Shown in pieces: positions 4,096 through 20,102 of a stretch of DNA of 20,143 bases. The position numbers were made by a program, and so were the translations under genes. Below the pieces are notes generated by a model. It ran no database searches. It saw only the letters and a list, made by a program, of their open reading frames with translations, and was not told the origin of the DNA. Where the stretch lies: the IMG/VR virus record IMGVR_UViG_3300006734_000053, positions 1 through 20,143 of that record, one strand, 5' to 3'. This stretch comes from a virus. The first letter of the stretch is position 1, and every line of letters begins with the position of its first letter.

Positions 4096-4124
4096 ACGAT
4101 AGGGCATTTTAAGCCCTGCGTCAA
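4096..4124 (-). promoter_or_regulatory. Sigma-70-like promoter for the structured interval and terS
   Basis: On the minus strand TTGACG (4124-4119) and TATCGT (4101-4096) are separated by 17 bp, which predicts a start near 4089, right after the GIY-YIG gene ends. The spacer contains a small inverted repeat, AGGGC-N7-GCCCT (4101-4117), which could be an operator or a weak terminator stem for the gene upstream. It has no T-run. Confidence 0.45.
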
Positions 4125-4660
4125 CCACGATTTAGCGTAAATGGGTCTTCCCAATACGCACGATCAACAGCGTTGTGGGCCTTGTGCTTCACGTCCATTT
4201 GGTTGGTGCGCAGATAGGCGTATTCGTCGGCTGGCTGTTCTTCCATAGGGGCACCAGCTTCAAACACCGGATTGACCCCAAGAAACTCGGCAGCGCCCTG
4301 TATCGCGGCGGCTCCATATGCGGGGTTTGCAAGTGACCACTCGCCTTCACACGGGAACTGCCTGCGCATCCGCAGCAAGGCGCACCGCTCCACTACCTTC
4401 GCATCATCCGTTGAAAACTCGGCCCAATAGCCGATGTGCAGATCTCGGCCAACAACGTCCTGTAGCTTCCGCATCCTATTCTTTAGCTGGGTGGTGCGCC
4501 CTATCTTCAAAAGCGGCATGTCCTCCAGCACTACGCAATAAACGACAGAACGCTGCTCATCGCGCTCACGGGATTGCCGTGCCGCATTCGCCGCCCAAGG
4601 TGCGCCTGCGTCTCTGGATGGACGAACGCCGCTGTTTGGTGCTATCTCATTTTTAGCCAT
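4121..4660 (-). CDS. GIY-YIG superfamily protein (T5orf172/MUG113-like)
   Basis: A 179-residue protein with a small nuclease-like domain in the middle: VYCVV (residues 40-44) stands for the GIY part, KIGRT (52-56) for the YIG-like strand, followed by NRMRKLQ (61-67) with the expected Arg, and a Glu near residue 91 in VVERC. This spacing matches the T5orf172/MUG113 branch of the GIY-YIG superfamily. The ATG at 4660 has AAGGA six bases upstream; a GTG 15 bases earlier is less likely. The position next to the packaging region recalls free-standing nucleases near terminase genes in other phages, but its target is unknown. It has its own promoter-like sequence upstream, and the C-terminal 80 residues are unassigned. 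Confidence 0.7.
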   Translation of the reverse strand: MAKNEIAPNSGVRPSRDAGAPWAANAARQSRERDEQRSVVYCVVLEDMPLLKIGRTTQLKNRMRKLQDVVGRDLHIGYWAEFSTDDAKVVERCALLRMRRQFPCEGEWSLANPAYGAAAIQGAAEFLGVNPVFEAGAPMEEQPADEYAYLRTNQMDVKHKAHNAVDRAYWEDPFTLNRG

Positions 4661-4728
4661 TTCGAATCCTTTCACATTCGATTTCGGTCAGGGCTGGCGA
4701 GGTGTGCAACCACCTTACCGGCCTGTTT

Positions 4729-13610: not shown

Positions 13611-13859
13611 ATGAGCGACGAAACCCACCGCGTGACCGCGAATGAGCTGCGTCAGTTCGTAGAGCGGATCGAAAATCTTGATGCGCAGAAGAAAGACCTC
13701 GCGGACCTGCGCAAGGACGTGTTCGCGGAAGCCAAGGCGCGAGGCTACGACGGCCCCGCCCTGACGGCCCTGATTAAGCTCCGCGCTGCCGATCCGGCCA
13801 AGCAATCTGAATTTGAAGCGGTGCTGGAGATGTACCGGAACGCCTTGGAGGGCAAGTAA
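13611..13859 (+). CDS. GapR-like DUF2312 protein
   Basis: 82 residues matching the DUF2312 family almost end to end: ANELRQFVERIENLDAQKKD, then LRKDVFAEAKARGYDGPALT, LIKLRAADP and a last helix EAVLEMYRNALEGK. The Caulobacter member GapR is a nucleoid-associated protein that clamps overtwisted DNA ahead of forks and polymerases and stimulates topoisomerases. A prophage copy in a recombination and replication module may serve phage replication or influence the host nucleoid; that is inference. It lies two bases after the exonuclease stop and one base before the next gene. Confidence 0.88.
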   Translation: MSDETHRVTANELRQFVERIENLDAQKKDLADLRKDVFAEAKARGYDGPALTALIKLRAADPAKQSEFEAVLEMYRNALEGK

Positions 13860-13860
13860 C

Positions 13861-14412
13861 ATGCAAGTTTTGATGATCGCAGGCAACGTGGGAATCCATG
13901 AGCTTTTGCGGTGTGACTTTTCTACAGGAGAGATAACCTGGAGGTTCAGGACCGAGGAGATGTTGATCAGGGCTGGTCGCGGTCAAGCACTAAACAAACT
14001 CCCAACTTGGAACTCAAGATATGCTGGAAGGAAAGGGTTCACCTGCATTGATGGGCATGGATACCTCATGGGTAGAATTTTCAGTAAGGCATACAAAGCG
14101 CACAGAGTAATTTGGGCACTGAAAAACGGTGAATGGCCTAATGATCAGATAGACCATTTGAATGGGGATCGAACGGACAACAGATTAATCAATCTAAGGT
14201 CGGTTTGCCAGTCCGAAAATAACCAAAACCTGAAAGCTAGAAGTGACAACAAAAGTGGTCACGTAGGGGTTTGCTTCGACCAGTCGAGGAAGAAGTGGCT
14301 AGCGACAATAAACACCAAATACATCGGACGGTTTGAAACTAAATGCGAAGCCATTGCGGCACGCCAAAACCATCCAGACGCACGCCAATTCACAGAAAGG
14401 CACGGTAACTGA
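13861..14412 (+). CDS. HNH homing endonuclease with AP2-like domain, fused to a copy of the SSB start
   Basis: 183 residues. The first 11 (MQVLMIAGNVG) match the start of the SSB encoded next (MQTLIIAGTCG). From residue 12 a typical HNH protein begins: IHELLRCDFSTGEITWRF. The HNH core lies around 80-111, with H81 in AHRVIWAL, D98-H99 and N101 in IDHLNGD, and N107 and N111. An AP2-like DNA-binding part follows (about 132-168: SGHVGVCFDQSRKKWLATIN). The body is visibly more AT-rich than its neighbours, a sign of recent transfer. It stops in a TGATG overlap with ssb. I read it as a mobile gene that inserted into ssb, took over its native start and supplied a recoded one behind it. Confidence 0.85.
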   Translation: MQVLMIAGNVGIHELLRCDFSTGEITWRFRTEEMLIRAGRGQALNKLPTWNSRYAGRKGFTCIDGHGYLMGRIFSKAYKAHRVIWALKNGEWPNDQIDHLNGDRTDNRLINLRSVCQSENNQNLKARSDNKSGHVGVCFDQSRKKWLATINTKYIGRFETKCEAIAARQNHPDARQFTERHGN

Positions 14413-14846
14413 TGCAAACTCTTATTATAGCAGGGACTTGTGGTCGCGACGCCGTATTGCGCCGAACACAGGCCGGTGACGCCGTGCTGGGGTTCTCGCT
14501 GGCCGTGGACAACGGCAAGGACAAGAACGGCAACAAGCGCGACAGCACTTGGTACGATTGCAGCGTGTGGGGCAAGCGGGCGGAAAGCCTAGAGCGCTTC
14601 ATCACGAAAGGAACCAAGCTGACCCTGACCGGACGCCCGACCGTGGACGCATACGAGGGCAAAGGCAAACTTGGCATTTCGGTGAACGAATTGACGTTCC
14701 AAGGCGGCGGCTCCGATAGCGGCGGCGGTCAGTCTGGCGGGGGCTATGACAGCGGCGCGTCTGGTGGCGGGTACGGCGGGGGGAACTCCGGCGGATCGCG
14801 TGATCTAGGAGATTCTATCCCGTTTGCCCCAGAGTGGCGCATCTGA
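14412..14846 (+). CDS. ssb: Single-stranded DNA-binding protein
   Basis: 144 residues with an OB fold: LIIAGTCGRDAVLRRTQAGD, then VLGFSLAVDNGKDKNG, STWYDCSVWGKRAESL and ITKGTKLTLTGRP. A Gly/Ser-rich flexible tail follows (about 100-130) and an end DLGDSIPFAPEWRI; the host-type tip DDDIPF is replaced by DSIPF with extra residues after it, so its contact with host partners may differ. SSB coats single strands during phage replication and annealing. The first 11 codons are AT-rich at third positions unlike the rest of the gene and seem to be a recoded start brought by the HNH gene upstream. Confidence 0.93.
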   Translation: MQTLIIAGTCGRDAVLRRTQAGDAVLGFSLAVDNGKDKNGNKRDSTWYDCSVWGKRAESLERFITKGTKLTLTGRPTVDAYEGKGKLGISVNELTFQGGGSDSGGGQSGGGYDSGASGGGYGGGNSGGSRDLGDSIPFAPEWRI

Positions 14847-18883: not shown

Positions 18884-19092
18884 GCCAAGCACGACTAATG
18901 AAGATCCACGACGCAGCCACCTATCTTGGCATGAGCGTGACCAAGCTGAAATCCAAGGGCCTGCCCGTCCGGCGCGACGGCGGCAACGTCCTCTATGACC
19001 GCCTGGACCTTGACGACTACGCGGACAACCTGCCGTATGACGGTAAACAGCAATCGGAGGGCGTAGAGGAATGGCAAAAGGCGTTCGACTAA
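18880..19092 (+). CDS. xis: Excisionase-type helix-turn-helix protein
   Basis: 70 residues from ATG 18880 (ATGA overlap). It is a MerR-like winged helix: MKIHDAATYLGMSVTKLKSK, then GLPVRRDGGNVLYDRLDLDD, the pattern of excisionases and AlpA-type regulators. Its place directly before the integrase, which it overlaps by 22 bases, supports a role as recombination directionality factor. A regulator of the integrase is the alternative. Confidence 0.75.
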   Translation: MSQARLMKIHDAATYLGMSVTKLKSKGLPVRRDGGNVLYDRLDLDDYADNLPYDGKQQSEGVEEWQKAFD

Positions 19093-20102
19093 AAGGCATC
19101 AAGGTCGTCACGAAGCCCAACGGCAAGCGGTATGTTTACCGCCGCGTAAGGGGGCAATTCGTATCGCTGCCGGACCTGCCGGAGAACCACCCCGACTTTC
19201 TGCGGGCCTATGTCGATGCCGAGCATTACGCCCCGACAGACGGGACGCTTGCCAGCACGATCAAGCTATTCATTGCCTCGAATGACTTTAAACAGCGCAA
19301 GGAAAGCACCCGCAAGGTATGGAGGCGCAGGCTTGAGAAGATCGCAATGCAGTACGGCAGTTCGCCTATCGACAAGCTGACGACCGATCTAGTGAACAAG
19401 GCTATTCGCAAGGTATCCCCCGGCGCACAGCGGGGAGAGCGCACTATCTGGCGGGCTATCTTTGCCTTTGCGCAGTCCGAGTTCCTACGCAGTGACAACC
19501 CGGCCAAAGACGCCATGATAGGCAAGACAAAGGCCGTACCGCATGGCACATGGACGCCGGAGGACGTTGCCACCTTCCGCGCCCGCTGGCCTGTAGGGTC
19601 ACCAGAGCGCCAAGCCTTCGAGGTGATATACTGGACCGCTGCGCGATGCGTAGATGCGGCTGTGATAGGCTGGCAGCACGTTTCAGACGGGGTGCTGGAG
19701 TTCGTACAGGAGAAAACAGGGGGCACAGCCGTTGTGCCGATCACCGCGCCCGTCGCGTCGTATTTAGAGGCTGACCGCCGCTTGTTCCTGGAAGCCGCGT
19801 CACCTGATCTGCTTTTCATCCTCACGACCACGGGAAAGGGCCGATCTGTCAAAGCCCTAAGTCAGTTCGTAAGCCGCGCCGCCCGTGATGCTGGACTAGA
19901 GAGCCGGACAGCTCACGGCCTGCGCCGCGCACGCGCCGTAATCCTCGCTGAAAACGGGTGGACGCCTCACCAAATCGGTGCATGGACGGGGCATGAATCC
20001 TTGGCCGAGGTCAGCCATTACACCCGCGATGCGAACAAAAGGAGCATGGTTGTTGGCAACCACGTTGGAAACTCCGGCAATGTGAAGCGGTTTCCGTCAT
20101 AA
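19071..20102 (+). CDS. int: Tyrosine recombinase (phage integrase)
   Basis: 343 residues that join phage and host DNA at the attachment site. The C-terminal catalytic domain shows the full set: R192 (TAARCVDAAV), K215 (QEKTGG), H282 and R285 (HGLRR), H308 (TGHES) and the nucleophile Y317 (HYTRDA). Before it are an N-terminal arm part (about 1-60) and a core-binding helical domain (about 60-160: STIKLFIASNDFKQRKESTR). GGAGG precedes the ATG. Int is last in the rightward operon and ends 24 bases before a probable attachment site. Confidence 0.93.
   Translation: MAKGVRLKGIKVVTKPNGKRYVYRRVRGQFVSLPDLPENHPDFLRAYVDAEHYAPTDGTLASTIKLFIASNDFKQRKESTRKVWRRRLEKIAMQYGSSPIDKLTTDLVNKAIRKVSPGAQRGERTIWRAIFAFAQSEFLRSDNPAKDAMIGKTKAVPHGTWTPEDVATFRARWPVGSPERQAFEVIYWTAARCVDAAVIGWQHVSDGVLEFVQEKTGGTAVVPITAPVASYLEADRRLFLEAASPDLLFILTTTGKGRSVKALSQFVSRAARDAGLESRTAHGLRRARAVILAENGWTPHQIGAWTGHESLAEVSHYTRDANKRSMVVGNHVGNSGNVKRFPS

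Follow-up and report, generated by a model that had tools for sequence, protein, structure and literature searches.

The closest described systems to the locus analyzed here are the mobile ORFs of fungal mitochondria, which replace the C-termini of their host genes with diverged, mostly synonymous copies (PMC3630166). In these systems (Allomyces atp6; Glomus atp6, atp9, cox2, and nad3), as in the phage cases described below, a free-standing endonuclease ORF lies near a gene end together with a diverged replacement end (PMC3630166). The fungal endonucleases are of the LAGLIDADG or GIY-YIG type and mitochondrial, only 3′ ends have been described, and the native end, displaced beyond the ORF, was reported as displaced and not as reused for the end of the enzyme (PMC3630166). 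In the phage cases, by contrast, the endonuclease is of the HNH type, mainly 5′ ends are involved, and the enzyme incorporates the displaced native end.

In phages, free-standing endonucleases have been reviewed as occupying intergenic sites with distant cut sites, or as splitting genes (PMC2988022). The free-standing HNH genes (the mob genes of T4, the HNN-AP2 genes of Xanthomonas phages, and the I-HmuI-like genes of Skunavirus) resemble the gene studied here in their HNH type (with an AP2-like DNA-binding part that is only weakly indicated in the window protein), in their patchy distribution, and in often overlapping their neighbors (PMC2988022, PMC2248197, PMC12724721), but differ in being either intergenic with cut sites that are often far off, or in splitting a gene (mobE in nrdA). 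The Xanthomonas phage HNN-AP2 genes showed no conserved flanking sequence (PMC2248197), and a 2025 Skunavirus survey lists insertion locations without mention of duplication (PMC12724721). In the relevant sections of these three papers, we found no description of gene-end capture with a recoded replacement. The ShiLan insertion in phage methylases is likewise an HNH gene inserted in a phage gene without an intron or intein, but it lies mid-gene and out of frame, the host protein is read through the insert, and there is no captured start (PMC11855218). Read in the host frame, it opens with 11 residues similar to the 11 that follow the insertion site, a likeness read by the authors (Section 3.1) as a possible sign of an intron (PMC11855218); it could instead be a replacement segment following the same logic mid-gene. 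Start capture by phage HNH genes was not described in the literature we searched, although most subscription papers lay outside that search and its absence from the literature is unproven.

The locus lies in a 20,143 bp stretch of viral DNA, referred to in full as the window (IMG/VR record IMGVR_UViG_3300006734_000053), and comprises the following features, all on the forward strand:

13611–13859 (+): upstream GapR-like gene of the operon (PF10073, E = 1.4e-24); DUF2312 also lies directly before ssb in Sulfitobacter phage NYA-2014a
13844–13852 (+): native ssb ribosome-binding region, containing GGAGGG and now serving the HNH gene; the same sequence precedes ssb in NYA-2014a
13861–13892 (+): native ssb 5′ end (codons 1–11, 32 nt), now the HNH N-terminus MQVLMIAGNVG
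13861–14412 (+): HNH endonuclease gene (183 a.a.; HNH_3, PF13392, E = 1.5e-15), possibly with an AP2-like C-terminal part; the headless body runs from codon 12
13893–14450 (+): inserted or replaced unit, 558 bp in place of 7 bp (CAAAGAT), from the empty-site comparison with NYA-2014a
14412–14450 (+): recoded copy of ssb codons 1–13 (MQTLIIAGTCGRD), with AT-rich third positions
14412–14846 (+): restored ssb (144 a.a.; Pfam PF00436), native in sequence from codon 14

The HNH and SSB ORFs begin MQVLMIAGNVG and MQTLIIAGTCG, respectively, sharing 7 of 11 residues. At the nucleotide level, the two 33-nt starts are identical at only 20 positions, and codon choice differs at four of the six degenerate residues they have in common. 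GC at third positions (GC3) is 0.64 for the captured start and 0.51 for the HNH body; ssb codons 1–13 have a GC3 of 0.31, against 0.75 for the remainder of the gene and 0.77 for the upstream gapR. The two ORFs are in different frames and overlap at the stop and start codons (TGATG), and the SSB encoded downstream is complete, beginning at a methionine of its own.

An empty version of this site is present in Sulfitobacter phage NYA-2014a (KM233261), where ssb directly follows the DUF2312/GapR gene with no HNH gene between them. The uninterrupted ssb start of NYA-2014a matches the codons at 13861 of the window at 32/33 nt and joins the downstream ssb of the window at codon 14, while the restored start of the window matches this empty allele at 20/33 nt. 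Using blastn, the left-hand identity between the two phages stops exactly at 13892 (278 bp, 94%) and the right-hand identity restarts exactly at 14451 (358 bp, 97%), with the 7 bp CAAAGAT of the empty allele missing from the window. From codon 21 onward, the two ssb genes agree at no fewer than 29/30 nt in each ten-codon bin. Another IMG/VR record (L005) is identical in this region and may represent the same phage. While empty at ssb, NYA-2014a carries another relative of the window HNH elsewhere in its genome (KM233261, 20220–20732).

Across the starts of 69 SSB relatives from phages and IMG/VR, the codons found at 14412 were absent from all 69 (best match 24/33 nt). No HNH gene of the window type was detectable at these 69 SSB loci, and none lay in front of ssb in the IMG/VR relatives. 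A single-protein search with the HNH returned no hit in genome contigs and one distant relative in viral contigs, so that no second instance of the exact HNH-ssb pair was identified.

These comparisons bear on the initial annotation of the window, which had been made from the sequence alone. Its description of the two similar N-termini with contrasting third positions held, as assessed by ORFs, Pfam, and GC3. It had placed the unit at about 13893 to 14444 with native codon use from SSB codon 12; the left end was right, but the right end lies six bases further, at 14450, and recoding spans codons 1–13 with native sequence from 14. The prediction that an HNH-free relative would carry an uninterrupted ssb with the 13861-type codons was borne out by NYA-2014a (32/33 nt). 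Neither observation named as refuting it was made: HNH-free relatives with the 14412-type codons numbered 0/69 (best 24/33), and an N-terminus like MQVLMIAGNVG was seen in no HNH protein encoded away from ssb. Use of the ssb start signals by the HNH gene is supported by the native GGAGGG Shine-Dalgarno sequence, identical in NYA-2014a, and the claimed distinction from an intron or intein held as well, given the complete downstream SSB and the replacement of 7 bp of host sequence. The suggestion that recoding protects the new allele from the enzyme remains an inference, without activity or cleavage data.

The window HNH protein is a member of the HNH_3 family by score (57 bits against a curated cut-off of 24.8), and H81, D98-H99, N107, and N111 are invariant columns in our HNH alignment (A1). 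Its AP2 score (14.8 bits) is below the cut-off of 33.3; the family profile also matches the AP2 protein 7wq5 weakly (E = 0.0023). The family profile also matches I-HmuI over the HNH core (PDB 1u3e, E = 1.4e-7), while a single-sequence search with the window HNH gave no hit. I-HmuI is intron-encoded, unlike the window HNH. Of 372 loci with other HNH proteins, 185 align from residue 12 of the window protein and only 18 from an earlier residue, and the match to phrog_99 covers residues 12–170. Given that homology begins mostly at residue 12, residues 1–11 do not belong to the HNH family proper, which is what an ssb start would predict.

To assess how general such captures are, the N-terminus of each related HNH gene was compared with that of the next gene. 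The survey grew from 91 sites to 255 with a next ORF and 193 with a start no more than 30 nt from the HNH stop, and finally covered 292 distinct HNH genes, 216 of them with an adjacent start. Among the 193, three pairs (the window included) scored ≥28, where 0.2 were expected from shuffled pairs. The window and three other loci (L215, L152, and L440) stood above shuffled pairs, and with Agrobacterium phage OLIVR4 there are four further clear start captures beyond the window. Gene-end capture is not the rule for the family, as it is absent from ~97% of the 216 HNH genes that are directly followed by another gene. Five of 394 genomes from the family of a Ruegeria genome carried HNH relatives, none of them among the captures.

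Several other candidates were rejected. L261 scored 40, but its matching start lies 221 nt downstream, within another gene; L302, L157, and L137 (MTN... before a zinc-ribbon gene) share only ~3 residues, the remainder being a normal HNH N-terminus; the matches in L326 and L305 were short or misplaced; and the HNH of Streptomyces phage Shawty, which precedes a primase, has no start in common with it. We also noted a decaying copy in Stenotrophomonas phage CUB19 (L086, 2001–2549), where an HNH gene between two tail genes contains an internal stop and is annotated as two genes.

In one of the four further captures, at a DUF968 gene in a Sphingobium MAG (L215), 20 codons are involved (MLPRRILKPEKRASRWRSQA vs. 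MLPRRIPKAPKRASRWRSQA), with 17/20 residues but only 35/60 nt the same; the restored start is not AT-rich, and empty relatives do not clearly favor either copy. An IMG/VR contig (L152) shows 19 codons captured from a DNA-primase-like gene (MKTEAFLSRLQKVKPHGKG vs. MRVDEFLSKLNKVRSHGKG; 30/57 nt identity), with an empty relative, Phipami28, at the protein level only. In genome G1067, from the family of a Rhizobium genome, 13 codons of a RuvC-like resolvase gene were captured (MTRILTFESKTSN vs. MTRILSFDQSTKN; 24/39 nt; L440), and 297 genomes from the family of G404 yielded no empty relative at the DNA level.

OLIVR4, an isolate, shows a seven-codon capture from a methyltransferase gene (MTVVASG vs. 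MTVVKSK), which scored low owing to its shortness. Its relatives Milano and 7-7-1 lack the HNH gene, and their methyltransferases start MTVVASG in the HNH-type codons (Milano, ATGACCGTCGTCGCATCGGGA). Over methyltransferase codons 1–10, Milano and 7-7-1 agree at 28/30 nt, while the restored OLIVR4 gene matches either at 20/30. The restored gene is recoded over ~27 codons, agreement rising only after about codon 27, and GC3 is 0.32 in the restored start, 0.37 in the HNH gene, and 0.59 in the rest of the methyltransferase gene. Two related loci (L135, 1932–2641; L209, 2435–3144) are possible start captures, with an HNH gene having five codons (MIDPR) in common with the gene that follows; Caulobacter phage GB2A carries the empty version of the latter. 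In L135, the captured 15 nt are identical in both copies, indicating that recoding is not universal at short overlaps.

A mirror-image capture was found at 3′ gene ends. The HNH protein at L147 ends PDFQALSGEWMAE, resembling the end of the preceding gene, PDFKALSGEWMSE, which belongs to phrog_3704 and is annotated as ferredoxin (PurM in some cyanophage records). In 203 of 370 loci, homology of the L147 HNH protein to its relatives stops at residue 184–185 of 198, immediately ahead of the captured end. We compared 51 relatives of the phrog_3704 gene, 46 without and five with an HNH gene. The 46 empty alleles end CGG CCT GAT TTC ... TCT GGC GAA TGG ATG GCG GAA TAA or variants thereof, and the gene end is rewritten in all five HNH-bearing alleles (CGC CCA GAC TTT AAG GCG CTA TCC GGT ... 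in most, with other recodings in L470 and L501), its stop overlapping the HNH start in each; the recoded end occurs in none of the 46 empty alleles. At L468 (same contig as L147), where the recoded tract spans roughly the last 35 codons, and at L469, the HNH gene ends with native gene-end codons, and the same HNH-recoded block precedes different native ends and downstream flanks, as a moving cassette would give.

Three further 3′ arrangements were noted. At L501 (1165–1760), the HNH ends HGRPDFVRPVWRVYG, only RPDF is left of the native end, and the end of the preceding gene is recoded differently. At L470 (710–1281) and L514 (337–908), the HNH gene lies behind a recoded gene end and has no native end (ending HGRVTTA before the stop); these two could be later stages or a second insertion mode.

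The cases share a common anatomy: an HNH body without a terminus of its own is fused in frame to a native gene end, and is accompanied by a second, synonymously diverged version of the same end, in which the recoding covers the whole length of the captured piece and often continues past it (the short L135 overlap excepted). An overlapping or touching stop and start between the HNH and the restored gene is also common to the cases, and across all of them, degenerate codons for conserved residues differ between the captured and restored copies in 45 of 62 instances. Empty alleles carry the captured-type and not the restored-type codons in the window, OLIVR4, and 3′ cases, the L215 comparison not being decisive. 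As is expected of homing endonucleases, the gene is also present in some close relatives and absent from others at one fixed site (the window against NYA-2014a, OLIVR4 against Milano and 7-7-1, and, in the 3′ case, five of 51 alleles). What is shown is the anatomy, the empty site, and the repeated independent occurrence at 5′ and 3′ gene ends. The initial interpretation is supported and largely right, and independent cases in other genes bear out its wording of an insertion strategy; the phenomenon is broader than it recognized, extending to several genes, several host groups, and both gene ends.

We consider it very likely that these loci reflect a mobile HNH cassette that invades host-gene ends and carries a recoded replacement end along with it, though cleavage, homing, and protection are inferred, with no cleavage, homing, or expression data. 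In the window, the cassette lacks a translation start of its own and, joined in frame to the native ssb 5′ end, would obtain from ssb its start codon, its ribosome-binding site, and its initial 11 residues. The recoded ssb codons 1–13 behind the HNH stop rebuild the full SSB, which would be started by termination-reinitiation at TGATG; in 5′ cases generally, the native end would supply expression to the HNH gene, with SSB here relying on reinitiation. From established homing biology, the HNH protein is inferred to cut the uninterrupted gene near the junction, and repair from the cassette allele, pairing on the left via the native end and on the right beyond the recoded stretch, would copy the HNH gene and recoded stretch as a unit. 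Were the copy native in sequence, the cut site would arise again at the far junction, repair could take a short route that bypasses the HNH gene, and recombination between the direct repeats could delete the cassette; recoding would prevent recutting, remove that route, and block that deletion. Of the features of fungal mobile ORFs, the diverged gene-end copy beside an endonuclease is present (ssb codons 1–13; the 3′ case), while a LAGLIDADG or GIY-YIG enzyme and a mitochondrial setting are not; the phage cassette works like a fungal mobile ORF with a replacement end but is not a member of that group.

The strongest competing explanation is ordinary homologous recombination with a diverged donor that carried a free-standing HNH gene before its own ssb, in which case the recoded start would be that of the donor, without selection for divergence. 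This remains possible. At the protein level, the restored SSB start resembles that of distant relatives (MQTLIIAGNVG in L033, L036, and L056), the recoded tracts extending past the captured part (27 codons in OLIVR4, ~35 in L468) look like co-conversion tracts, and transfer from foreign species was the explanation given for the fungal cases (PMC3630166). However, the left junction falls within ssb, at codon 11, and the HNH is fused there in frame, an arrangement that a donor with an intergenic HNH would not produce, and the recoded start occurs in no relative compared (best 24/33), nor the recoded end in any of the 46 empty 3′-case alleles. The recombination and cassette readings differ mainly in the first origin of the recoded segment and not in the anatomy.

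The remaining alternatives carry far less weight. Tandem duplication of the gene end by illegitimate joining of the HNH, followed by neutral drift of the copies, would fit the identical 15-nt duplication flanking the L135 HNH, but the upstream copy and ssb body of the window are nearly unchanged relative to NYA-2014a (32/33 nt; 29–30/30 per bin) while 13/33 nt are changed in the restored copy, and drift limited to one 39-nt stretch is not credible; we regard this as very unlikely. HNH genes often sit in group I introns and inteins, and the HNH could be imagined as spliced out, or SSB as working in two pieces. Yet the complete SSB with its own methionine, the overlapping stop and start, and the different frames leave nothing in need of splicing (on the basis of ORFs, with no search for splicing motifs), and the window unit does not meet the criterion of a continuous host frame after removal, so that this explanation is practically ruled out. 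The same applies to an assembly chimera or a chance likeness of two N-termini. The record containing the window does come from a metagenome-type virus collection, but the same anatomy is found in an isolate genome (OLIVR4), bacterial assemblies, and five separate metagenome contigs, and the pair scores exceed those of shuffled pairs.

On a bolder reading, towards which we lean by a narrow margin, these start-less or end-less cassettes represent a general third invasion route for phage HNH endonucleases besides introns and inteins, in which the cassette takes the native end of an essential gene and pays with a pre-recoded copy inferred to be cleavage-proof. If true, this would be a natural, phage counterpart to the logic of engineered rescue (recoded) gene drives, and would explain how free-standing endonuclease genes come to lie inside essential conserved genes without splicing or harm, as well as the source of their expression. 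The signature is searchable in all phage genomes, namely an enzyme terminus equal to the terminus of its neighbor, a synonymously diverged restored copy, and an overlapping stop and start. The anatomy also predicts the HNH target site to within a few bases, making the specificity directly testable. For annotation, caution is warranted, as neither such HNH N-termini nor the gene-end codons of the neighboring gene are native.

Elsewhere in the window, a gene with a T5orf172 domain (4121–4675, reverse strand; PF10544, E = 3.5e-5) is possibly a second mobile nuclease; the T5orf172 family is related to GIY-YIG nucleases. At the right end lies a gene of the phage integrase family (19071–20102), from which the phage is likely temperate.
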